Made by a program: the position numbers and the translations under genes | Shown here: positions 5,139 to 64,000 of the stretch, piece after piece | Layout of the letters: every line of letters starts with the position of its first letter | Numbering within the stretch: the first letter of the stretch is position 1 | DNA from: Mariniblastus fucicola | Lineage (GTDB): Bacteria > Planctomycetota > Planctomycetia > Pirellulales > Pirellulaceae | Assembly: GCF_008087665.1 (NCBI RefSeq) | Contig: NZ_CP042912.1 | Coordinates: 6,076,001-6,140,000, forward strand | DNA length: 64,000 nucleotides | Direction of reading: 5' to 3' | The notes under the pieces: generated by a model | The model's input: only the letters and a program-made list of their open reading frames with translations | Told to the model about the DNA's origin: nothing | The model's database searches: none

Positions 5139-5181
5139 TTAACAGGCGATTGACAAGCGAAGAATTAGCCAAGGATTGGAA

Positions 5182-5775
5182 ATGGAAACCACCGCCAAAT
5201 CGTACTGGATCGTCTGCCTGTTCCTCTTGCTTTGCACCGCCTCGAACGTTTCTCAGCAACGCCCCAACATTATCGTCATCATGGCGGATGATCTTGGTTA
5301 TGCGGATGTCGGCTGCTATGGCTGCACAGATATTCCAACTCCCAATATCGACCAGCTCGCTTCCGATGGTGTGCGTTTCACGTCAGCCTATGTGACCGGA
5401 AACATGTATGATCCGTCGCGGGCCGAAAATGGAGACCATTGCAAAATACTCGCCGGACAAGATAGCAAAGGTGCCCGGCGTCACTGCCCAAACCCGTTCA
5501 GTCTACGCTGCCATGGTGAACGAAATGGATCAGGGAATCGGCAAGCTGTTGTCCAAAGTCGACGCGATTGGCTTTAAAGACAATACCGTCGCCTGGTTTC
5601 TCAGCGATTATGAATGTATGAAAAGGACCAATGACAATCGACCTTTGCGCGGTCACAACGGCAATAGCCATGAAGGTGGCTTGCGTGTCCGATGATCGTC
5701 AGATGGCCAGGAAATGTCCCAGCCAGCTGGAACGGCTCAGCGTTCAACCGTGGATCACCCGGTGATAACATTTGA
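5182..5775 (+). pseudogene. Decayed sulfatase (internal deletion, frameshifts, catalytic Cys lost)
   Basis: The start is well formed (AAGGA, 6 bases, ATG at 5182) and a signal peptide leads into [20 protein letters not shown], the opening of arylsulfatases. The formylglycine motif C-x-P-S-R reads Y-D-P-S-R, so the catalytic Cys is Tyr. Immediately after it, near 5425, several hundred bases are missing and the reading frame changes. Homology resumes in another frame with [30 protein letters not shown] and PLRGHNGNSHEGGLRV. A second shift near 5693 leads to MIVRWPGNVPASWNG. No frame spans the gene, so it cannot make a working sulfatase. It runs directly into the next pseudogene. Confidence 0.85.
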
Positions 5776-52816: not shown

Positions 52817-53584
52817 CTACTTCGAGCCGCAGACCTTACAGTTTTCGTCTGGCGAGATTGCGAGCTTCTCAAACACCATCGTGCGAAGATTGAAGTGCAG
52901 GATCTGGCTGTGCAGCGGCTGACCGAATCCGGCCAGCAACTTGATCGCTTCCATCGCACCGATACAAGCGACCGTTCCGGAAGTCGCTCCGAAAACCGGG
53001 AACTCACGCTTCCAATACTTCGGTAGCTCGGGCGTCAGGCATCGCAAACACGGAACGCCGCTCGCAGGAAACGTGGTGATCGTTGCTTCGGTGTCAAACA
53101 TCGCGCAATTGACATGCGGTTTACCGTGCCGAACACAGGCATCGTTCATCGCGAACCGCTCTTTGAATAGCGGCGCCGCACCTACGCAAACGTCGGATTG
53201 CGGGACCCATTTTTCAGCCAGTTCATCGTCCAGGTTTGCGGCAATCGGAACAATCTCGATTCGCGGATTGAGGTCCTTCAACCGGCGTTCGATCGTTTCG
53301 ATTCGTGGCTTACCCAACCAGTCGTGCGTCATCAGCAGCTGGCGGTTGAGGTCAGAGTGCTTCACGTTTCCGCCGTGAGCAATGATCAGCCGGCCAACAC
53401 CTGCCGCAGCAAGCTCGTAGGCAACGACGCTGCCCAGTCCACCGCATCGAGAAATCAATACGGTGCTGTTCTTGAGTCGCCGTTGGCCTTCTTCGCCGAA
53501 ATCTTCTGTCCAAATCTGCCACTCATAAGTTGACTTCTCTTCTTCGGTCAACGACGGGGCGGGTGTCTTCGGTAATTCGCTCAT
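52817..53584 (-). CDS. ThiF/MoeB-fold protein with altered adenylation site
   Basis: The 255-residue protein has the E1-like fold of MoeB/ThiF/HesA, with both zinc-binding pairs (Cys179-x2-Cys182 and Cys249-x2-Cys252) and Arg81 of the SNLxRQ motif (SDLNRQ). The nucleotide loop is RCGGLGS instead of GxGGLG, so its first Gly is Arg46. The D-x-D pair before SNL is His70-Gly71-Gly72-Asn73. The catalytic Asp of the DCTDN motif (Asp130 in E. coli MoeB) falls in GAAPLF at 135-140 and is missing. The Lys86 equivalent is Arg94. It may be a pseudoenzyme or use other chemistry. Its start overlaps the ATPase gene by 62 bases. Confidence 0.8.
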   Translation of the reverse strand: MSELPKTPAPSLTEEEKSTYEWQIWTEDFGEEGQRRLKNSTVLISRCGGLGSVVAYELAAAGVGRLIIAHGGNVKHSDLNRQLLMTHDWLGKPRIETIERRLKDLNPRIEIVPIAANLDDELAEKWVPQSDVCVGAAPLFKERFAMNDACVRHGKPHVNCAMFDTEATITTFPASGVPCLRCLTPELPKYWKREFPVFGATSGTVACIGAMEAIKLLAGFGQPLHSQILHFNLRTMVFEKLAISPDENCKVCGSK

Positions 53585-54248
53585 TCAGTTTCTCGACACT
53601 GTCTTTGTCAACATGTTGTATCTGTTTGTTCGGCATGAATCGGAAGTGAGTCGTGCCCAGCCGAACCGCATCGTCGGCATTGTGCGTAATGTGAAGCACC
53701 GTCACCTGTTCCTGTTGGTGAATCGTTTGCAACAGTTCAGCGATCCTGATTCGAGTCGTATCGTCGAGCGCACTTAGCGGTTCATCAAGGCACATCAATC
53801 GCGGCCGAAACGACAACGCTCTGGCCAAAGCGATCCTCTGGCATTCACCGCCGGAAAGCCCTTGCGGATAGCGATTGAGCAAACTTGTGATCCCGGTTAG
53901 CTCCGCAAGTTCATCCACTCGACGTTGGCGAGCCTTTCCACTCGCCCCACGAACCAGCAGACCGAATTCAATCTGTTTGTCAATTCGCATCGTCGGAAAC
54001 AACGCCCGATCTTGCGGCACGTAGCCGATCCCACGCCTCGCCGGCGGAAAACCGGTTACATCCACGCCATCGAGTTCGACCGTGCCCGATTTGATTCTGG
54101 TTAGCCCGCAAATCACTTCCAAAATCGTCGTTTTACCGCAACCCGTCGGGCCCATCAGCACGGCGTATTCACCGGCGTCGATTGAAAAATTGAGGCCGGA
54201 GAGTTCAAAGTCTCCTTGCCGAATGTGGACGTTGGAAAGTTCGATCAT
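53523..54248 (-). CDS. Molybdate/tungstate-type ABC transporter ATP-binding protein (ModC-like)
   Basis: The 241-residue ABC ATPase has Walker A GPTGCGKTT, the signature LSGGECQRIALAR, Walker B CLDEPLSALD and the H-loop LHITHNADDAV. FPPARRGIGYVPQDRALFP is the usual Q-loop region of the ModC/CysA group. It lacks the C-terminal MOP domain of classical ModC, as the tungstate and archaeal-type members do. Its start overlaps the end of the permease by 4 bases (ATGA), and its end overlaps the ThiF-like gene, so all three are translationally coupled. It should power uptake through the ModB-like permease. Confidence 0.9.
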   Translation of the reverse strand: MIELSNVHIRQGDFELSGLNFSIDAGEYAVLMGPTGCGKTTILEVICGLTRIKSGTVELDGVDVTGFPPARRGIGYVPQDRALFPTMRIDKQIEFGLLVRGASGKARQRRVDELAELTGITSLLNRYPQGLSGGECQRIALARALSFRPRLMCLDEPLSALDDTTRIRIAELLQTIHQQEQVTVLHITHNADDAVRLGTTHFRFMPNKQIQHVDKDSVEKLNERITEDTRPVVDRRREVNL

Positions 54249-55195
54249 GCGATGACTCCCCGCTGGCTACCGCCGCCCAGAGTCAAAAATCGGGTCGCGA
54301 TCAGGACGATAATGGCCAGTGTAACGAGAATCAGTGAGGCCACGACCGCGCCGCGCAAATTGCCGAATTGAAAGTTCAGGTAAACGGTCGTCGAAAGAAC
54401 TTCGGTCTTCATTCGCGCCGTTCCGGCAAAGATCAGAATTGGTCCAAACTCACCAAGTGATCGTGCCCACGCGAGCGTAAACGCAGCCACGGTCCCGCGC
54501 CACGCTTGCGGCAATGCCACATCGGCGAAGGCGCGAAAGCGACTCGCTCCCAGAGTACAGGCAACGCGTTCAGGTCGCTCATTGATCTGCTCAAACGTGT
54601 CACGCATGGTCCGAATCGCAAACGCGGCAGCGACTGTAAACTGAGCCAAAATCACGGCCGGGATTTCGTAAGTGATCCCGCGAATTCCTGGAAATCCAAT
54701 GCCGGAAAACAAAGACGTCGCTCCGTCGTCAGCAATTCTTCCCAACGGCGTTTGCATCAGAACCAGCAGGCTGATTCCGACGACCAACGGTGGCAAGACG
54801 ATAGGAATATCCAGCAACGTATCGATGCAATAGCGAGCGCAAATCGCCAATCGCCCAAGGACCGAACCATGAGGAAAACGTCGTCCGATGGCGTCCCGCC
54901 CCAACCGCGCGAGAACGTATCCGGTCGGCACGGCGACCCAAATCGACAGAATTGCCGAAATCGTGCACGAGATCAGGCTTAACCAGATCGAATACCGAAC
55001 TTTCTCATCACCCAACAACTCGCGGAAGTCGGACCAGTCTGCGAATCGGAAGTCCGCTAACAGCATCGCGACGATCAGAGCGATATACAGTCCGCCCAGC
55101 AACGACATCGCGGCCCAGAAAGATTTGTTCCAGTGCGAAGGAAGTTTCAGATTCTCCGAGCCATCGCTCCGGTTTGCAGTGGGTTCGTTTTTCAA
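54245..55195 (-). CDS. Molybdate/tungstate-type ABC transporter permease (ModB-like)
   Basis: The 316-residue protein has about six membrane segments with a cytoplasmic N-terminal extension. The BPD inner-membrane signature EAA-loop is RVACTLGASRFRAFADVALP-QAWRG, and PIVLPPLVVGISLLVLMQTP with RSLGEFGPILIFAG are diagnostic of the ModB/CysT group. It should form the channel that takes oxyanion from ModA-type binding domains, here fused to the next upstream protein. It starts 11 bases after the stop of the fusion gene. Confidence 0.9.
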   Translation of the reverse strand: MKNEPTANRSDGSENLKLPSHWNKSFWAAMSLLGGLYIALIVAMLLADFRFADWSDFRELLGDEKVRYSIWLSLISCTISAILSIWVAVPTGYVLARLGRDAIGRRFPHGSVLGRLAICARYCIDTLLDIPIVLPPLVVGISLLVLMQTPLGRIADDGATSLFSGIGFPGIRGITYEIPAVILAQFTVAAAFAIRTMRDTFEQINERPERVACTLGASRFRAFADVALPQAWRGTVAAFTLAWARSLGEFGPILIFAGTARMKTEVLSTTVYLNFQFGNLRGAVVASLILVTLAIIVLIATRFLTLGGGSQRGVIA

Positions 55196-55206
55196 AATGA
55201 ATCGCG

Positions 55207-57522
55207 TCAGTCTAGAGTTTTTCGTCCAAGCGTTTCACGAAAGCCGAACTGGGTAAACCGACTGCGAATTTTGTCACGCGAAATCCACTCGTGGAGGCGA
55301 TTCATCAATTGCGAGTTACCCGTCTGTTTCGAGATCGCCCACGGTTGCCGTGCAGTTGCTCGCTCGGATTCGATCTCGACCAATTCTAGCAGAGATGCCC
55401 CTTTTTCGTCGGCAAGAACATTGGATCGATACACGATTGCCGCGTCGAGCCCTTCGGCCATTAGCTGACTGATTAACGTCGGTCCGACATCCACGATCAC
55501 GCTGGCTTTCTCGTAAATCTGCTCATAGAGATCTTCGTAGGGCGGATGAACCAGCAGCTCTCGGGTCAGCGCACCCAAAGCCGATTGCTGCGGATCGCAA
55601 ATTCCAAACCGCACATCTCCCGAGAGCAAATCTGAAGGAGACTTGATTTTTGATGCATACCCTTTTCGAACAACGATCACGATGTCGTTGGAGCTCACCA
55701 TCGTGTGAGGCTCGAAGTAGTTTTCGACTTTGTGCAGAAACGAGATATCGCACGCCAGGAAAGCGTCGGGAAACAGGTCTGGATCTTCGGTGCCTTCGAT
55801 CGAAGCCACCAGCTTTCCACAGCCTTGCCAACGCGGGTAAATGTTCACTCCTTCACGCGTAGCGAATTCTCGCACCGAATCTTCGAGCACGGGCGTGAAC
55901 ATGGAACCGCAGTACAGATGCACTTCGGGAACTTCCTCCCATCGATCACCCTGAACAAAGTTGAAACCGAATTGCTCGAACGCGTTCTTTGAATCCGTCG
56001 CGCCGGAGAGGAATCGGCAAAACTTGAGCGCCGGCGTGGGTTGAGAAGTCGTACTCAAAACGCCGATCGCAATTTTGCTTTTCAGCTCATTACTTTCGTC
56101 AGCGAAAGCAGCGATTCTCAGCACCGGCGAGTCGTCGACCTGATTCAACTGATTCACGGTCGTGTCCCAAATGATCGCCGCATCGAGGCTGCCAGTCGCC
56201 AGGGCTTGAGCCAGCGTCATGACATTTTCTGCGTCGGTTGTTTTGCGCGTCTCCAAATCGTCGAGCACGCCTTCACGCTGTGCAATTTTACGCACGATTT
56301 TCCCGACGGCGGCACGATCAGAAGCCAAACCGTACTTGATGTCGTCGGTGGAGATCAGCTTTTGCAACGAGCTCAAATCACGCGATTCGTCGGCTCGAAC
56401 TGCGATCACAGGACGCTGCTCAGCAACCGGAAAACGTTCGGCGATCACGCCATCGTCGTGAGCTTTCTCAAGCAAAACATCGTCGGCCGAAAGATACAGA
56501 TCAGCCGCGGCTTTGACGCCCGTTTCGAACTCTGTTTTGACTTGACCCGCCAGCTCGCCCGAACCGCCTGTTCGCACGATTTCGACGTTGCCGCCGAACT
56601 GACTGTTGTACTTTTCGATGGCTTTTTCGACTGGCTTGGCGACACCGGCTGCACAGTAAACCCGAACAGTTTGCGATGAAACACGATCGCTGCGTGCAGC
56701 TTCCGGACGAAGGTTCAAGGCCGCGACGCCGAGTGCCGCGACCGACAGAATCGAGCCGATCACGAATAACATCAAACGGGAAACCGATCCAGTTCGTGCA
56801 GCCGGTTTTGGAGCACCGACAATCGTGTCTGGCTTTTCGATCGCAGCAGCGGGTTCGGTCGTCTTGTCGTCTTTCACGTTCGTCGCTTTCCCCAAACTCA
56901 ACACTTCGTCGGCCAATGAATCGACAGCCGCATCATGGCTGGCAATCAGAACGGATCCACCATCGTCGGCGAATTCTCGCAACGCGCCGAAAACGATTTG
57001 GGCATTCTCATCGTCAAGGTTTCCTGTTGGCTCATCACAAATCAGCAGCGAAGGTTTGTGCGCGATCGAACGCGCCAACGCGACTCGTTGACGTTCGCCG
57101 TGACTCAGAGCGTTTGGCTTGTGCGACATCCGGTCTTCGAGCCCCAATCGTGTTAGCCAATGCCGGGCCACATCATCTTTGACTCCACGAGCCAACTTTA
57201 CGTTCTGCAAAACCGACAGGTAGGGAATCAGCTCGAGCGTCTGAAAAAGGTACCCCAGTTTTTGCGAACGAAACTTCACGCGGGCTGATGCTGACATGCC
57301 GTACAGGTTGATACCGTCAAGCATGACTTCGCCTTTCGACGGTGACCTCATGCCACCGCAAATCAGCAACAACGTGGTTTTCCCGCAGCCACTTTCGCCA
57401 CGAGCCGCGACGATTTTTGATTTCTGGATCTCGAAGCTCAAGTCTTCAAATGGAGTCACTTCGCCGTTGGCACTGCTGAACGAATGAGACAGGTTTTTGG
57501 CGATCAGCACAGAATCGGACAT
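55207..57522 (-). CDS. Fusion of LolD/MacB-type ATPase, membrane anchor and two ModA-like binding domains
   Basis: This 771-residue protein has an unusual order. Residues 1-215 are a MacB/LolD-type ATPase: Walker A GESGCGKTT (42-50), signature LSHGERQ (139-145, His replacing Gly), Walker B LLICDEP (159-165) and His196. A linker leads to one membrane helix at 249-270 (RLMLFVIGSILSVAALGVAA). Residues 285-525 are a ModA-like domain (VRVYCAAGVAKPVEKAIEKY; ADLYLSADDVLLEKA). Residues 530-771 are a second such domain (VHLYCGSMFTPVLEDSVREF; DIVIVVRKG). Both end in F-x-QFGF. The ATPase would be cytoplasmic and both binding domains periplasmic. The start codon shares one base with the FtsX-type permease stop. 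Confidence 0.9.
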   Translation of the reverse strand: MSDSVLIAKNLSHSFSSANGEVTPFEDLSFEIQKSKIVAARGESGCGKTTLLLICGGMRSPSKGEVMLDGINLYGMSASARVKFRSQKLGYLFQTLELIPYLSVLQNVKLARGVKDDVARHWLTRLGLEDRMSHKPNALSHGERQRVALARSIAHKPSLLICDEPTGNLDDENAQIVFGALREFADDGGSVLIASHDAAVDSLADEVLSLGKATNVKDDKTTEPAAAIEKPDTIVGAPKPAARTGSVSRLMLFVIGSILSVAALGVAALNLRPEAARSDRVSSQTVRVYCAAGVAKPVEKAIEKYNSQFGGNVEIVRTGGSGELAGQVKTEFETGVKAAADLYLSADDVLLEKAHDDGVIAERFPVAEQRPVIAVRADESRDLSSLQKLISTDDIKYGLASDRAAVGKIVRKIAQREGVLDDLETRKTTDAENVMTLAQALATGSLDAAIIWDTTVNQLNQVDDSPVLRIAAFADESNELKSKIAIGVLSTTSQPTPALKFCRFLSGATDSKNAFEQFGFNFVQGDRWEEVPEVHLYCGSMFTPVLEDSVREFATREGVNIYPRWQGCGKLVASIEGTEDPDLFPDAFLACDISFLHKVENYFEPHTMVSSNDIVIVVRKGYASKIKSPSDLLSGDVRFGICDPQQSALGALTRELLVHPPYEDLYEQIYEKASVIVDVGPTLISQLMAEGLDAAIVYRSNVLADEKGASLLELVEIESERATARQPWAISKQTGNSQLMNRLHEWISRDKIRSRFTQFGFRETLGRKTLD

Positions 57523-58700
57523 CAGTTTTCCTTTCCAATCAAATCAGCCGGATGTTGCGACGCCGACCAGAGAGCGGGAATCGCCGAGGCCATGACTGAC
57601 AACGCAATCGCAACCAGGCCGATCGTCAGCCCCGCATTCCAGTCAATCGCAAACTTCTTTCCCGTCGCTGCGAAAAGCTGTTTGCTCTGCCAGAGCGATC
57701 CGAGCGACCCAACACCGATGCCGATGATGCAGCCGAACACACCAAGGATCAGCGACCGCAGCACGAACAGTGTCGCGACTTTCATTTGGCCAAATCCAAC
57801 CGATTGAAGGACTCCGATTTCTGGCTGGCGTTGAATCGTGTTCAAAGTCGCCAATGCGATCATCGAACAGGCCAGGAACGTCCACATGAGATTCTTCAAC
57901 AGAGCCAAGTTCTGCTGACTTAAGGCGCGAACATTCAACCGGGCACTTGCCATTTGCTCGCGGCGAAGCAACGCTGCCTGGTCGGTGATTCGAGCAAACT
58001 CGTTGGTCAGCACGACATCCGATTGAAGGCCCGTTTCCTCGCATTTTTCCTGTGTGCATTCGATGGCTTCGATGCGACTGACTTGATCAGGCAACCCAAA
58101 CAATTCCTGAGCCGAATGCAGTTCCATGAAGACCGCCGAGTCTTGCCAGGTGCCGTTGCCACGATTCACGCGATCGACTGGAAACGACTTTCCAGAGATT
58201 GAAATCGTGGCGTTTTTGTTCTCGCGAGAAATCTTGAGCCGCATTGCAAGCGCCGATCCGATTTGGACTTTGCCTTTCGCGATCGCCTTCTGCATCGGCG
58301 CCTTCGGTCGACCGGGAACAGGGATGGATGCCGAGAGCCCGACGACTCGAGCTTCCACAGTTTCATTTTCTGATTGGCATTGAGCATTGCGCTCGAGCAT
58401 CGGAATCAGATGGTTCAACGAAGCTCGAAACTCGACCAGTTGATCCACGACCGCGTAGGGCATCGTCTCTTCGTTGATGCCGCCTTGCTGATGGTAAGCG
58501 AACTGATCGACGTCTGCCGGAAGGATCACGATGTTTGATCCGATGTCGCGAACGTTGCGGCCGATTTCTTTTTCAAAGCCTTTGCTGTTGACGACAAAGA
58601 ACGTGATCGTGCCCGTGATGACCGCGACCAGCAACACGGTCAGCAGACTCGAGTTCTTTCGGTGAAAGATCTCCTGAATTGTCAGCGTAAATGGATTCAC
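57522..58700 (-). CDS. FtsX/MacB-type ABC transporter permease
   Basis: The 392-residue protein has an N-terminal membrane helix at about 18-37 (LLTVLLVAVITGTITFFVVN), a periplasmic domain of about 230 residues and three C-terminal helices (LMWTFLACSMIALATLN; VLRSLILGVFGCIIGIGVGS; IGLVAIALSVMASAIPALWS), the topology of FtsX/MacB. QRQPEIGVLQSVGFGQMKVA is the coupling-helix region. It should pair with the LolD-like ATPase of the next gene. Stop and start codons overlap as TGATG, so synthesis is coupled. MacB-type permeases transmit force across the membrane rather than simply importing ligand. Confidence 0.9.
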   Translation of the reverse strand: MNPFTLTIQEIFHRKNSSLLTVLLVAVITGTITFFVVNSKGFEKEIGRNVRDIGSNIVILPADVDQFAYHQQGGINEETMPYAVVDQLVEFRASLNHLIPMLERNAQCQSENETVEARVVGLSASIPVPGRPKAPMQKAIAKGKVQIGSALAMRLKISRENKNATISISGKSFPVDRVNRGNGTWQDSAVFMELHSAQELFGLPDQVSRIEAIECTQEKCEETGLQSDVVLTNEFARITDQAALLRREQMASARLNVRALSQQNLALLKNLMWTFLACSMIALATLNTIQRQPEIGVLQSVGFGQMKVATLFVLRSLILGVFGCIIGIGVGSLGSLWQSKQLFAATGKKFAIDWNAGLTIGLVAIALSVMASAIPALWSASQHPADLIGKEN

Positions 58701-58800: not shown

Positions 58801-60153
58801 TTATCCATCGCGGCGCATCCGAACCACGACGACGACTAGAGCTACCAACGCCAGTCCGCCGAACAAAAACCATGGCATTTCCGAGGATGATTCGGTTGTA
58901 TCGACTTCCGAATCGGAATCGTCGATCGGTGAATCGGCGACTGGTTTTGCTGCAGCGTGATCGGCATCGGTCGTGGTTTCTGATACGTCTGCGTCTACGT
59001 TTACTTCAGGTTCAACGTCCGAATCCGCTTCAGGTTCCGGTTCGTCCAGATTGTGGATCATCAATCCGGCTCCCAGATCAATCAAACCGCTTTCGGAAAC
59101 GCTGCCGCTGTTCTTTTGCAAAATTTGAGCAACTTCGGCCATCACGAACGCTGACCGAGGATCAAAATCGAGGCCTTCTTCCGTTCGACGTTCAAGTTCA
59201 ATCGGCCAATCGTGAAGCATTTGGTCGCCGTAGAGCCACTCACGATCCAGTTCGCACTCGCAATCGCTACCGCAAATCGAAGCCAACGAAACCAGCTTCT
59301 GTTTTTCGATTTGGTCGTGAGGAATCAGATCACCCAATCGTCTGGCCTGACCGAACATGATCGCGACGGCAGGGAAAGTTCCATCGGCGTCCGGATCGAT
59401 CCCGATTGACTTTAGCGTCAGAATTTCGGCGGCATCATCAAAGTCAACTTCGACGACAGAAGGACCATTGTCCGAAGCCTTATCCATCATCCACATCTGC
59501 TTTTCAGTCTGCTCAATCGCGGCGGTGATTGTTTCCTTGGCGGCTTCGTTTTTCGAGACATCGTTGCCTCGAATGAGCATGAACACGCAAAGCGATTCCG
59601 AAAGTTGGTGCAGCAGTTTTTTTCGAACAGGAGAATGAACCAGACGATCAACCCGTTGTTCAAATGGCTCGCCTCCGTCGGCGACAGGAATGACGTGGCC
59701 TTGCGAGTTGGTCAAAAACATTTTTGGCGTCGAATCTAAATCGGGATCGCCGCCCACCAAGCGGATGGCTTCCGCTGAATCACTTTCGTGCCACGCGTAG
59801 CCCAGATTCGTGGTTGGCAATTTGGCTTTCAACACCGTATTCCAATTCTGGAAATCCACATCAGAAACGCCGTCGGGCTTGACCAAATCCAGTTGCCAGG
59901 TTTTGCCGTGCACGTTGACAAAAGCAACGTCGCGGACGCTGTACTTGCATCGCGGTGCTGGTTGATTGTTTGATGCTGATGATTCGCCAACGCCTATGCA
60001 GACGAACAGCAGAACGCAAGCCATCATGCCAAAACGGTGCACGAGGTACGGACTCACGCGACGGCCTTTCGCGATTGTACGCTTGCCGGTTCTGCCCAGA
60101 CGGATCATCTGCTCTCTGAGGATGTTGCGCCGAATCAACTTTCGCTCACTCAT
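58801..60153 (-). CDS. Exported membrane-anchored protein of unknown function
   Basis: The ATG at 60153 (MSERKLIRRNILREQMIRLG) overlaps the end of the PQQ gene by 8 bases; the frame opens earlier at 60234. A basic start and a hydrophobic stretch (MMACVLLFVCIGVG) act as a signal or anchor. The body of about 320 residues holds a Cys-rich ICGSDCECELD motif and no recognised domain. An acidic linker of Asp, Glu and Ser near the end precedes a C-terminal membrane helix (FLFGGLALVALVVVVV) and a RMRRDG tail, so the body faces the periplasm. It lies 100 bases ahead of the FtsX-type permease gene and is probably in the same operon. Confidence 0.75.
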   Translation of the reverse strand: MSERKLIRRNILREQMIRLGRTGKRTIAKGRRVSPYLVHRFGMMACVLLFVCIGVGESSASNNQPAPRCKYSVRDVAFVNVHGKTWQLDLVKPDGVSDVDFQNWNTVLKAKLPTTNLGYAWHESDSAEAIRLVGGDPDLDSTPKMFLTNSQGHVIPVADGGEPFEQRVDRLVHSPVRKKLLHQLSESLCVFMLIRGNDVSKNEAAKETITAAIEQTEKQMWMMDKASDNGPSVVEVDFDDAAEILTLKSIGIDPDADGTFPAVAIMFGQARRLGDLIPHDQIEKQKLVSLASICGSDCECELDREWLYGDQMLHDWPIELERRTEEGLDFDPRSAFVMAEVAQILQKNSGSVSESGLIDLGAGLMIHNLDEPEPEADSDVEPEVNVDADVSETTTDADHAAAKPVADSPIDDSDSEVDTTESSSEMPWFLFGGLALVALVVVVVRMRRDG

Positions 60154-63100
60154 CGTCAGGTAGATCCTCGTCCACGTTTCGCGGCAAAAATCCAAGTGAA
60201 GTTTCCAGCCACGATCCACACGAACAGCCGCCACCGCCTTCGGCCGAAATCAACATGCCTTGAGCCGGAATGACGCTCAACCAACAGTCGGTTCGAATCC
60301 GCTTGAAACGATTGACCTTCTGCGTTCTCGCGTCCCACCATGTCGTCTCGCCAAGCCGCGTGAAAATTCCATTGGAACTTGCAGTGTAACTCGAACAACC
60401 GTGCCCGCCAGGAAATCCGCGGTGCATCGTTTCGCCGTCAGCCAATTGCAAAACCTCAGGACGAAGGTAGATCAAGTCGCCCTGAATCGCCGGGCGAGAA
60501 ATATGTTTCCCGTGATGCGTGGCCTCCCAATCGATTTCCGTCGACCAACGATTCTCTCCGGTGGAAGGATCGAAAGCCTGAGCCGTGAAGATCTTCTTCG
60601 TTGCCTCCGACGCGACCAACACCAACGCCCGAATGTCTTTCTTGCCACCGCCGGCAAGGTACAGACTCGACAGGTGGCCTGCGAACGGATCCAGCTGGTA
60701 ACGCCACAGTTCTGCACCTGAATCGGCGTCCAGGCAAACGATGTCGTGGTCCTGTTTTCCGTCGAGCGAAAGCCTTCGCTTCTTTCCATCCAGATGAGCC
60801 TGAGTTTTGCTTTCGATGAAGTAAATCCGGTCATCCATGATTGTGATTGTCGGATGAATCACCAATCCATCGTGTTCCCAATCCAGCTTTCCAGTTTCGG
60901 CATTCATGGAAAACAGCTTGTCGCCGGCGACCACATGCGTGTCGTTTCCTCCGGTCGAATCGAACCACATCGATGCGCCCCACCAACGCGTGTAGACGGC
61001 GGAAGCTTTCACCACGCTGCCGATCAGAGACGTCTTGTGACGAGCGATGTAGCCCCAATGGTTTTGCTCTTTGTCGGTTGCAGGAATGTCAAACTGCCGA
61101 TCGATTTCGCCAGACTTTCCGTCGACAAACCAGGCTTGATGTTCCGCCGCAACGAAAACGCCGTCGTCATCCGCACACCAGTTGGAACAATCGTGCGGAA
61201 CGTTCCATCGCATCACAGTCGGCGATTCCACGCTCCACAAAACGGCACCGCTGTAGTTGTCCAGCGCGATCATCCGCTGTTGGCCCTGAAGAAAGATTCT
61301 CCCTCCGGCCGCAAGCGGCGATGGCTTTCGGTTCTGGCGATCGGTTTGGTAACGAGGCCCTGGCCGGCCGATCCACTGAGTCCTGAGTTGGTTGCGATCT
61401 GAAATTCCCGACAGAGCTTCACCGCCGTAAGCACTGTTGTCAGCACTTCCGTACATGTGGCTCCACGTTCCCGATCCCTTCAAGCCGCCGCGTTGCCAGA
61501 CCACGGATTCGCCGTCATGCAACAGTCCGCCTTGAGGTCGAACCAAACGACGAACTTCGCTGTTGGTTTTCGCGGCAACGACCGTCGACGCAAACGCAGA
61601 AGGCAAGTCATCCAAAGATCGGTTGACGACGCAAAATTTCGGACCGTAAACGACCTCCGCGTCCTGCGACCATTCGTCTTTCAGCTTCGTCGCCTTGTCT
61701 TCATCAGGCTCAACAAGGACGACCAGAAAGTCCGACTGTTTCGCGATATCCTTCGCCTTTTGCTGCTGATCGGCACCGACGACCAACACCATTCCACGCG
61801 TGTTTGGACCTTTCTCGATCAGTTCACTGACAAAAGCGTTCGGAGTCGCCATTGGCAGTGTTTCCGTCCAATCGAAATGCGTATCGATCAGAAACGATTC
61901 CGTCTTTTCAGCCGCGTCATCCGCGCTTTGAGATATTTGAAACTGAAGTTGGCGTTTGTGCGGCAAATCCTTGATAATGACCCGATGGTTCGTCGTCTGG
62001 TCATCGTTTTTGATCCGACGCACACCGGATTCCATGATCACGTCAACGACAGAAGGCCCATTTTCGTGCGTTCCAAAGTTGACTTCGATTTCTCCTGGGC
62101 GGACGAACTTCGTATACGGTCCCCAGGCAAGAAAGTTCTGCGGCAACTCATCAACAGGCTTCGTCGCTGTCTTTGTTTTCTTGCTCGCGCCCAACGTTAC
62201 TCCGAATTCGTTCGCCGAGGCCTCAAACAACCTCGTCACATCGGAAGCCGAAATGGCTTTGCCGTAAACGCGAACTTCCTGGAGCGCGCCCTGCAATGGA
62301 AAATCTTCGTCGGAATCGCGATAGCTGCCAACGGTAAAGAAACAGCTGTCGGAATAGCTGATCGGGCCTTGCTCCGAATTCGTCGATCCGGCCAACGAAC
62401 CGTTAACGTAGATTCGAGTTTCGTTCCCGTTGTACGTGCCGACGACATGGTTCCAACTGCGAGACTCGAACGCGTTGTTGGAAGTCAAATAAGTCATTCC
62501 GCTGCCGCCACCCGCAACCGCCATGTAAAACTGGTCGTTTTTGTAGCCCAACGTCCAACCATGTTCCGTGTTGCCGTCATCCTGAAAACATCCGATCACA
62601 CTGCCCCACTGTTGCGGAACGTCGACTCGAACCCAGGCTTCCACGGTGATCGCATCGCGTGGAAGTGATTCCGTGTTTTCAATTTTGTGAGGAAAGTAGC
62701 CACCGGACATGGCGACGCCTTCAAGCTTTTCTGAATCGTTGATTCGAATCGCGGTTCCAGTTCCTTTGAGCGTCAGGTCGACGCCGGACGCATGATCTTT
62801 AACGACAGCGCCTTGCAGATTTCGATCCTCAACCGCGGCGCCGTCTTTCGTCATGCCAGCCCGATGAAACACCCAGCGGTGAAGCAAATTTTTCTTGCGA
62901 ACCTTGGGAACCGGCGGCGATTTCCAGGCTTTGTTTTCTGTATTGGAACTATCTTTTTCGCTCGCGATTTCCAGCTTTGAGTTCACCAACTCGAAAGCGT
63001 GAATGTGGCCCTGATCCGTGGAAACCATCAGATGATTTTTCGCGAATGACAGGCCGAAAGCTCGACCAACGACTTCCGCCGACCACAGCACCGAGCCATC

Positions 63101-64000
63101 AAACGCGTTGACGCCGGTGACATGACGATCGCCACCAACGATGATCGCGTTGCCGACTTTGATCAGCTCCAATGGCTCATCAACTTCACAGCTCCAACGC
63201 AGTTCATTCGTGTCCCGACTGGCAGCAAACAGCTTCTGCCCATCAATCACAAAGAAATCGCTGCCCGAAATTGCGATCGCCCGTCCGCGAGGGAATGAGG
63301 CCACTCTTTCTTTCCCCTGGAACACTGCCATTTGGCCAGCGCGAGATGGCTTGCCGCCTTCGGCCCGGACAACGTCACCTTCATCGGTCACGACCGCCGT
63401 CACGCCGCCGCCACCCGGCAAGCTGCCTTTTTTTGCACCTGTGGAACGATCGAAAAGCAATGGAGCAATTCGGCCTTGAGGGACAATCAAGCGATCATCC
63501 GCGATCAGCAGGTTGCCTTCCAACGTCGCGTCTTCATGTCGCGTCACGTAAGTCGATTTTGATTCGTCGTCTTTTCCGGTTTCGACATTGATCGCACAGA
63601 GATACGATTCCCGCCATGGCAGCATCGATGCTCCGAAGTACGCGATATTGTCACGCACAATCACACCCGTGCGGATCGGGTAGTAACTGATCAAACGATC
63701 GTTGTTGATCAGCATCAGTTGCTCGGCACCCTGATCGATTGAAGGGCTGAATTTCCAGATTTGCTTGCCGTTTGATTTGTTCAGGCAGTATGCGAACCCA
63801 TCGTCGCACCCAAAAAGCACTTTGTCGCCATCGATCGTCGGAGCCAATCGCACGGGTCCGCCGGCATTGAATTGCCAAATCAGTTTTCCAGTCTGCAAGT
63901 CGACTGCTTTGACGAAGTCCTGGCTGGAAGATCCAAAGACAGCGATCTTGCCGTCGCTCACCGGATAGAAACAGGCATCGTACTGCCGCATCGCAGGCAG
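60146..64000 (-). CDS. Large PQQ-propeller/LamG/Rossmann-domain protein (N-terminus outside window)
   Basis: The frame is open at base 64000, so the start and any signal peptide lie beyond the window; the visible part has 1284 residues, ending LPRNVDEDLPDDE. Two PQQ-like beta-propeller regions flank the middle: residues 1-340 (VDLQTGKLIWQFNAG; NVETGKDDESK) and about 820 to the end (ALDNYSGAVLWSVESP; CLDADSGAELWRYQ). A LamG domain sits near 435-590 (RDAITVEAWVRVD). A Rossmann-type segment lies near 705-815 (RGMVLVVGADQQQKAKDIAK). This combination recurs in planctomycete outer proteins. The Cys-rich tail (GGGGCSCGSW) is notable. It is the first visible gene of the transport run. Confidence 0.85.
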   Translation of the reverse strand: MPAMRQYDACFYPVSDGKIAVFGSSSQDFVKAVDLQTGKLIWQFNAGGPVRLAPTIDGDKVLFGCDDGFAYCLNKSNGKQIWKFSPSIDQGAEQLMLINNDRLISYYPIRTGVIVRDNIAYFGASMLPWRESYLCAINVETGKDDESKSTYVTRHEDATLEGNLLIADDRLIVPQGRIAPLLFDRSTGAKKGSLPGGGGVTAVVTDEGDVVRAEGGKPSRAGQMAVFQGKERVASFPRGRAIAISGSDFFVIDGQKLFAASRDTNELRWSCEVDEPLELIKVGNAIIVGGDRHVTGVNAFDGSVLWSAEVVGRAFGLSFAKNHLMVSTDQGHIHAFELVNSKLEIASEKDSSNTENKAWKSPPVPKVRKKNLLHRWVFHRAGMTKDGAAVEDRNLQGAVVKDHASGVDLTLKGTGTAIRINDSEKLEGVAMSGGYFPHKIENTESLPRDAITVEAWVRVDVPQQWGSVIGCFQDDGNTEHGWTLGYKNDQFYMAVAGGGSGMTYLTSNNAFESRSWNHVVGTYNGNETRIYVNGSLAGSTNSEQGPISYSDSCFFTVGSYRDSDEDFPLQGALQEVRVYGKAISASDVTRLFEASANEFGVTLGASKKTKTATKPVDELPQNFLAWGPYTKFVRPGEIEVNFGTHENGPSVVDVIMESGVRRIKNDDQTTNHRVIIKDLPHKRQLQFQISQSADDAAEKTESFLIDTHFDWTETLPMATPNAFVSELIEKGPNTRGMVLVVGADQQQKAKDIAKQSDFLVVLVEPDEDKATKLKDEWSQDAEVVYGPKFCVVNRSLDDLPSAFASTVVAAKTNSEVRRLVRPQGGLLHDGESVVWQRGGLKGSGTWSHMYGSADNSAYGGEALSGISDRNQLRTQWIGRPGPRYQTDRQNRKPSPLAAGGRIFLQGQQRMIALDNYSGAVLWSVESPTVMRWNVPHDCSNWCADDDGVFVAAEHQAWFVDGKSGEIDRQFDIPATDKEQNHWGYIARHKTSLIGSVVKASAVYTRWWGASMWFDSTGGNDTHVVAGDKLFSMNAETGKLDWEHDGLVIHPTITIMDDRIYFIESKTQAHLDGKKRRLSLDGKQDHDIVCLDADSGAELWRYQLDPFAGHLSSLYLAGGGKKDIRALVLVASEATKKIFTAQAFDPSTGENRWSTEIDWEATHHGKHISRPAIQGDLIYLRPEVLQLADGETMHRGFPGGHGCSSYTASSNGIFTRLGETTWWDARTQKVNRFKRIRTDCWLSVIPAQGMLISAEGGGGCSCGSWLETSLGFLPRNVDEDLPDDE

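Follow-up and report, generated by a model that had tools for sequence, protein, structure and literature searches.

A LolD-like ATPase and a tandem ModA-like binding protein in one reading frame of Mariniblastus fucicola: very probably two neighbouring genes joined at a 4-nt overlap

Introduction

NrtC of the nitrate importer resembles CmpC of the cyanobacterial bicarbonate importer. In CmpC, an ATP-binding cassette (ABC) ATPase carries a C-terminal NrtA-like domain that lies on the cytoplasmic side and is thought to be regulatory, and a selected mutant is reported in which cmpC and cmpD had lost the spacer that separates them, so that both proteins were fused (PMC11349869). Tandem substrate-binding domains are found joined to a permease in GlnPQ (PMC8025302). 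Here I consider an open reading frame (ORF) in a 64,000-nucleotide (nt) stretch of the Mariniblastus fucicola genome (the window, whose positions are used for all coordinates below), in which an ABC ATPase, a membrane helix and two ModA-like binding domains follow one another as a single chain. I will argue that the chain very probably represents two neighbouring genes, of which relatives keep one for each part.

The locus shares with CmpC the presence of an ABC ATPase and a solute-binding-like domain in one chain, here in this assembly only, and differs from it in that the domain of CmpC is of NrtA type and cytoplasmic, whereas here a helix (residues 245-270) separates the parts and there are two ModA-type domains. 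The initial annotation of this DNA had held that known families do not predict such an architecture, which is too strong a statement, considering the ATPase with an NrtA-like C-terminal domain that the same source describes (PMC11349869). With GlnPQ the locus shares two binding domains in tandem, and GlnPQ SBD1-SBD2 (6h30) is the top Foldseek row for the tandem (E 8.7e-19), at a root-mean-square deviation (rmsd) near 20 A, so that the two domains do not superpose on 6h30 as one body. In GlnPQ the domains are joined to the permease and serve amino acids, whereas here they are of ModA type and joined to an ATPase, ModB being a separate gene. I found no precedent in the open-access literature for a chain in which a helix connects an ATPase with a pair of ModA-type receptors, and no paper there on this fusion or on the gene cluster in which it lies.

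Each part also has its own described counterpart. Type I importers of the ModABC/WtpABC kind agree with the locus in the ModA/WtpA fold of both binding domains and in the presence of a ModB/WtpB-like permease and a ModC/WtpC-like ATPase in the operon; here, however, two binding domains stand in one anchored chain, the second has invariant Cys568 and Cys591, and the modA equivalog cut-off is narrowly missed. FtsX systems of the LolCDE/MacB type likewise have a LolD/FtsE-like ATPase adjoining an FtsX-family permease, but the scores here lie far under the LolD, FtsE, MacB and LolCE cut-offs, and no MacA-like Pfam family is present among the six operon proteins scanned.

Results

The Reading Frame and Its Parts

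The joined ORF runs on the minus strand, from an ATG at 57522 to a stop at 55207, and encodes 771 residues. The continuous frame had been described correctly; the strand is added here. Its features are as follows.

55207-57522, minus strand: joined ORF with ATPase, helix and two ModA-fold domains, 771 codons, joined solely in this genome
56890-57522, minus strand: ATPase part, residues 1-211, whose ortholog is a stand-alone ATPase gene beside FtsX in same-genus relatives
56877-56897, minus strand: interval of the net frame change, if the ATPase formerly ended at the TGA at 56876-56874 (21 nt, from three-frame translation; includes TTTGGGGAAA, with GGGG at 56890-56893)
56874-56877, minus strand: GTGA, in which the GTG of codon 216 overlaps a +1-frame TGA, where the ATPase is predicted to have once ended (from sequence and three-frame translation)
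56713-56790, minus strand: membrane-anchor helix, residues about 245-270 (from hydropathy and AlphaFold2)
55948-56667, minus strand: binding domain 1, residues about 286-525, ModA fold, with Ser321 at the position of ModA Ser39, and Cys290
55222-55926, minus strand: binding domain 2, residues about 533-767, ModA/WtpA-like fold, with Cys568 at the position of ModA Ser39, and Cys591

Pfam places ABC_tran at residues 26-166 of the chain and finds two SBP_bac_11 stretches besides. All the ATPase motifs reported as visible can be located: Walker A (GESGCGKTT, 42-50), the signature (LSHGERQ, 139-145, which deviates from the canonical LSGGQ), Walker B (159-170) and the H-loop (194-197). Hydropathy peaks at residues 250-269, and AlphaFold2 gives a helix at residues 245-270 of the fused numbering. 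The ending F-x-QFGF, said to be common to the two binding domains, is FEQFGF in the first (515-520) and FTQFGF in the second (756-761). Pfam, hydropathy, AlphaFold2 and the ModA/WtpA fold thus agree with the division into an ATPase, a single helix and two tandem domains that had been proposed, and the order of domains observed in the ORF is far beyond chance.

Separate Genes in Relatives

The fused chain is not supported as an established architecture. Adjacent pairs of the ATPase and the tandem binding protein were read in 24 distinct relative genomes, and all 24 have two separate genes; a conserved fusion is rejected on this count. In an adjacent pair, the ATPase gene immediately precedes that of the tandem binding protein, with a gap of -60 to 400 nt (the criterion for 23 of the 24 pairs), gene starts being taken as the most upstream ATG, GTG or TTG. 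The overlap is exactly 4 nt in 17 of the 24, and its letters are ATGA, TTGA or GTGA in every one of the 17. The same genus provides 13 genomes with the pair side by side, all with the 4-nt overlap (start ATG in 5, TTG in 7 and GTG in 1), and the stand-alone ATPase orthologs of same-genus relatives are 221-263 residues long as called, mostly 223.

Since a joined gene would escape a count of pairs, the lengths of tandem ORFs were checked as well. Among 63 longer than 450 residues, 62 fall between 491 and 598, and the extra N-terminus of the remaining one (700 residues; locus L059, genome G035) proved on examination not to be the ATPase. The family search gave matches at E<=1e-50 in 118 of 241 genomes; among these, residues 1-771 are covered without a stop solely in the window's own genome (G000). 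Twelve other family rows have an open frame longer than 700 residues, and all were examined: none joins the ATPase to the binding domains. Two candidates, G031 and G134, span both parts, but with stops between them, and their genes are separate (loci L050 and L147). Nine more (G135, G184, G231, G232, G233, G236, G237, G238 and G241) were rejected for having no ATPase in the long frame, and in these nine and G035 ModB is a separate ORF (10 of 10).

A wider search of the phylum gave the same picture. In an evenly drawn sample of 392 genomes of the phylum, 67 (the window's own included) match the tandem profile at E<=1e-40, and no other match runs into both binding domains with an open frame longer than 615 residues. 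A search of plasmids by protein found no place covering 80% of the query among the 5000 best-scoring records, the number at which it was capped, and says nothing either way. Overall, the search for the same domain order that had been recommended recovers that order in the window's genome and in no relative examined, and the single-chain architecture is, in all likelihood, a one-genome event affecting two neighbouring genes that relatives keep apart.

How the Two Frames Became One

In the +1 frame relative to the ORF, a TGA occurs at 56900-56898 and another at 56876-56874, the second overlapping the GTG of codon 216. This GTG is the sole in-frame ATG, GTG or TTG between residue 211 and the conserved R-x-G (243-245) of the binding protein's N-terminus, and the ATPase stop of the overlap-bearing relatives has the same phase as the window's TGA at 56876-56874. 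Since the phase of the predicted former ATPase stop has been kept in the window, a net one-base change within 56897-56877, a stretch that contains TTTGGGGAAAGCGACGAAC, would merge two overlapping genes. A slip in this stretch can be biological or technical. Whichever the cause, I put at roughly 85% the probability that these are normally two genes, joined by a net one-base change at the 4-nt overlap, and such a change explains the joining. Two considerations weigh against this account: by my estimate, there is roughly a 1 in 4 chance that GTGA would be retained in phase by accident, and the relatives are distant, the closest being about 52-54% identical in the ATPase and 59% in the binding part. 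Ribosomal frameshifting at TTTGGGG, which would yield both products, was also considered and is supported by none of the tests made.

Real Fusion or Base-Call Error

The joined frame rests on one assembly of M. fucicola. I consider a real, species-specific fusion somewhat likelier than a base-call error, as a matter of judgement rather than computation. This leaning comes in part from a rough prior: in a clean assembly, lineage-specific joinings should outnumber residual errors at any given 21 nt. Compared with the tails of relatives, the linker of the joined ORF is also longer, and its sequence less basic (by eye, unscored).

The competing account, to which I give a little under even odds, is that the true genome has two overlapping genes and that their joining comes from a single base miscalled within a short homopolymer. 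Several points count in its favor and so against a real fusion: only a net one-base change is needed, in a 21-nt interval containing TTTGGGGAAA; short homopolymers lie in that interval and the overlap type of relatives (GTGA) is still kept; and the tail of ModC, two genes downstream, also passes the end seen in several relatives. On the other side stands the condition of other genes in the same genome. The listing of 63 ABC ATPase matches contains none that a stop or frame change interrupts (L003 alone has a TGA, at the point where the gene naturally ends), and of 66 sulfatase matches, 56 cover nearly the full profile in one frame, six make up three pairs within single frames and four are partial, one of the four having been examined. 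Moreover, the two-gene version would have an ATPase that ends about 7 residues before the end of that in L038, and a binding protein that begins with the longer, less basic tail (both by eye).

The partial sulfatase match that was examined lies in the window itself, at 5176-5577 on the plus strand. It is a short remnant that matches PF00884 over no more than its first 54 positions and has the appearance of a decayed gene.

The ATPase Part and FtsX

The neighbours of the joined ORF are these.

57522-58700, minus strand: FtsX-family permease (PF02687), the likely partner of the ATPase part, adjoining the ATPase gene in relatives
54245-55195, minus strand: ModB/WtpB-like importer permease (from Pfam and profile matches)
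53523-54248, minus strand: ModC/WtpC-like importer ATPase, with a tail longer than in several relatives and a 62-nt overlap with the next gene
52817-53584, minus strand: MoeB/ThiF-like adenylyltransferase (PF00899)
58801-60234, minus strand: undescribed protein, probably exported (hydrophobic N-terminus, by eye), with a thioredoxin-like fold and invariant cysteines

ModC has 241 residues, as compared to 212-223 in several relatives, and extends 62 nt into the ThiF-like gene (53523-53584, minus strand), possibly a second frame or stop change in the operon.

The profiles nearest to the ATPase part are LolD (163.8 bits), DevA, a bacteriocin-export model and FtsE, and all 25 models shown have cut-offs above its score. 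It misses the cut-off of the LolD equivalog TIGR02211 (163.8 versus 307.75 bits) and that of the MacB equivalog PRK10535 (127.2 versus 966 bits). Its pairing with the permease is nonetheless that of an FtsX-type ABC system, with PF02687 at 40.8 bits (cut-off 25.5) beside PF00005 at 104.4 bits (cut-off 25). FtsX accompanies the ATPase gene in all 13 of the closest loci (12 of the same genus and one from another genus of the family). In 17 other loci the ATPase lies no more than 9 kb from the tandem, and FtsX was recognised in 12 of these. Two genomes of the same genus, G022 and G025, have FtsX, ATPase and ThiF without the binding protein; a more distant tandem (32% identity) lies elsewhere in them, with its own ModB and ModC (loci L060, L061, L063 and L054). 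Judged from gene order, the ATPase gene belongs with FtsX.

The Binding Domains and Their Ligand

Of 50 other loci, 45 have ModB and 40 have ModC within 9 kb of the tandem gene, on either strand, and on this genomic context the binding protein belongs with the importer genes. Two genomes of the same genus have, before ModB and ModC, a single-domain relative that is nearest to domain 1 (G004 and G013; L062 1235-2266 and L066 1691-2725), so the tandem is not universal even within the genus.

The tandem binding part was modelled by AlphaFold2 with 13 genus-level relatives, a mixed alignment of ATPase and binding protein having been dropped because its consensus suggested that ATPase rows had been pulled into binding-domain columns. 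The mean pLDDT (predicted local distance difference test) is 85.2 and the pTM (predicted template modelling score) 0.57, which means that the model is good for each domain but poor for how the two are placed relative to each other. In structure, domain 1 matches ModA 3gzg_A (Z 25.7, rmsd 2.6, 225 aligned), and a 17-row profile reaches ModA over the same domain (best E 3.4e-25). Compared with each other by hhalign, the profiles of domains 1 and 2 align over 229 columns with 21% identity (E 6.5e-34), which makes the domains homologous at the profile level. The two domains are consistent, in their sequences, with duplication or a common origin, and the suggestion that they may have arisen by duplication stands.

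I take the oxyanion-binding residues of ModA to be Ser12, Ser39 and Tyr170, with Ser39 a ligand of molybdate. The residues at the corresponding positions were counted in 64 sequences (the window and 63 fetched loci, 14 loci being omitted as repeats). In domain 1, the Ser39 position has Ser in 63, the Ser12 position has Gly in 44 (among them the window), Ser in 18 and Asn in 2, and the Tyr170 position has Trp in 44, Tyr in 16, Phe in 3 and Leu in 1; Cys290 is Cys in 62. In domain 2, the Tyr170 position has Tyr in all 64 and the Ser12 position differs between alignments. Cys568, which aligns to Ser39 and starts a helix in the model, is Cys in 64 of 64, as is Cys591. The comparison with ModA that had been called for gives a mixed picture, with Ser39 matched in domain 1 and Tyr170 in domain 2, but with Gly for Ser12 in domain 1 of the window and Cys for Ser39 in domain 2. 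From the differences at the Ser39 and Tyr170 positions, the domains probably differ in ligand, as had been supposed, or in affinity.

A molybdenum or tungsten oxyanion is the predicted ligand, at what I would call even odds. This is the weakest step of the explanation, owing to the invariant Cys in domain 2 where ModA has Ser39. In the M. fucicola genome this gene is the sole SBP_bac_11 match at E<=0.01, and a MoaE gene is present; the two findings together support a molybdenum or tungsten role without proving it.

Besides the Cys of domain 2, several results weigh against such a ligand. The top structural row for domain 2 is 6lkg_A, a binding protein of a two-component system (Z 22.9, rmsd 2.7, 232 aligned), level with ModA/WtpA 3cfx_A (Z 22.1, rmsd 3.1, 226 aligned) and the sulfate-binding 1sbp (Z 22.0). 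Single-sequence searches of the PDB gave no match for domain 1 at E<=0.01, and for domain 2 reached WtpA/ModA only at E 0.009-0.06; with these searches so weak, a profile search was needed to reach ModA. The cut-off of the ModA equivalog TIGR01256 is narrowly missed (60.9 versus 62.5 bits), although a score this near it is also among the grounds for Mod-type binding domains. Thiamine, sulfate, iron or phosphonate may be imported instead, with only low profile scores and the shared fold in favor of these. The VIA-align rows are mostly of domain 1, and the absence of a family among them carries no meaning. The conserved cysteines may leave room for a thiol-dependent ligand.

The Surrounding Gene Cluster

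The loci of the cluster were picked from best hits, and counts among them are not population frequencies. Near the tandem gene in 50 other loci there is a Cys-rich, probably exported protein in 33, a MoeB/ThiF-like protein in 25, a small MoaD/ThiS-like protein in 20 and the ATPase in 17. The Cys-rich protein lies within 9 kb of the tandem gene in 13 of the 13 closest loci. Both of the two small proteins scanned match ThiS above its cut-off, and one matches a MoaD family too, below its cut-off. In four loci of other lineages (L127, L128, L136 and L142), the small protein ends in GG and its gene is flanked by ModC and the ThiF-like gene; the 12 same-genus loci L038-L049 showed no recognisable protein of this kind within 9 kb.

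The Cys-rich protein of the window (58801-60234) has no Pfam or NCBIfam match. Its model has a mean pLDDT of 68.2 and a thioredoxin-like domain, of which 101 residues align to thioredoxin with Z 10.4 and rmsd 2.5. A second thioredoxin-like domain, ahead of this one, is suggested only by the succession of strands and helices in the model and by tandem rows of the protein disulfide isomerase type at low TM-score. Three cysteines of the protein, CxC included, are kept in 51 of 51 sequences.

Upstream, at 60146-64000 on the minus strand, is a large protein with a pyrroloquinoline quinone (PQQ) propeller and laminin-G; other members of the genus have relatives of it at this position, and distant relatives occur near the cluster elsewhere.

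Discussion

Because the ATPase goes with FtsX and the binding protein with the importer, the locus contains two neighbouring transporters, and the chain joins part of each. Under the account that I prefer, two genes joined at their overlap, the ATPase part would stay in the cytoplasm and pair with FtsX, for LolD/MacB-like export or mechanotransmission, the helix would span the inner membrane, and the two binding domains would bind an oxyanion (molybdate or tungstate being the most likely) and pass it on to ModB, with ModC as the driving ATPase. If the fusion is real, it would tether the binding domains of the importer to the FtsX pump, and a free binding protein could still initiate at GTG216.

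It is unlikely, on the other hand, that the fusion is both real and functional in the manner suggested by analogy with CmpC, with the tethered binding domains regulating the FtsX-coupled ATPase or coupling both transporters. The predicted topology (ATPase inside, one helix, binding domains outside) would permit this, and CmpC offers the example of a solute-binding domain, presumed to be regulatory, that is part of an ATPase (PMC11349869), but the fusion is absent from every relative examined, and the extra domain of CmpC is cytoplasmic whereas here it would lie across the membrane. That the ATPase part powers ModB, making the fusion an importer subunit alone, is highly improbable: the joined ORF adjoins ModB in the operon, but a ModC gene already does so, the ATPase is nearest to profiles of the LolD/DevA/FtsE type, and it accompanies FtsX when the binding protein is encoded at another site (L060, L063).

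A bolder proposal, which I offer as a long shot, is that an expressed, real fusion couples the FtsX pump to a Mod-type importer through a transmembrane tether between the cytoplasmic ATPase and tandem periplasmic receptors of oxyanion type and, at the same time, that these modules serve thiol-dependent uptake across Planctomycetota, together with the Cys protein of thioredoxin fold and the MoeB-like and MoaD-like genes, the second receptor binding a thio-oxyanion, a metal or a redox-controlled oxyanion by way of its invariant Cys pair.

Returning to the joining of two overlapping genes, its meaning depends on the cause. Should the joining be an error, it would cleanly illustrate how a single base, where genes overlap by 4 nt, can produce a false architecture. 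Should it be real, it would show a receptor of one transporter and the ABC motor of a different one linked in nature across the membrane, a gene fusion caught early. The more durable lead is the widespread and poorly understood cluster itself, with its tandem ModA-like receptor, FtsX pair, MoeB-like and MoaD-like genes and thioredoxin-fold protein.

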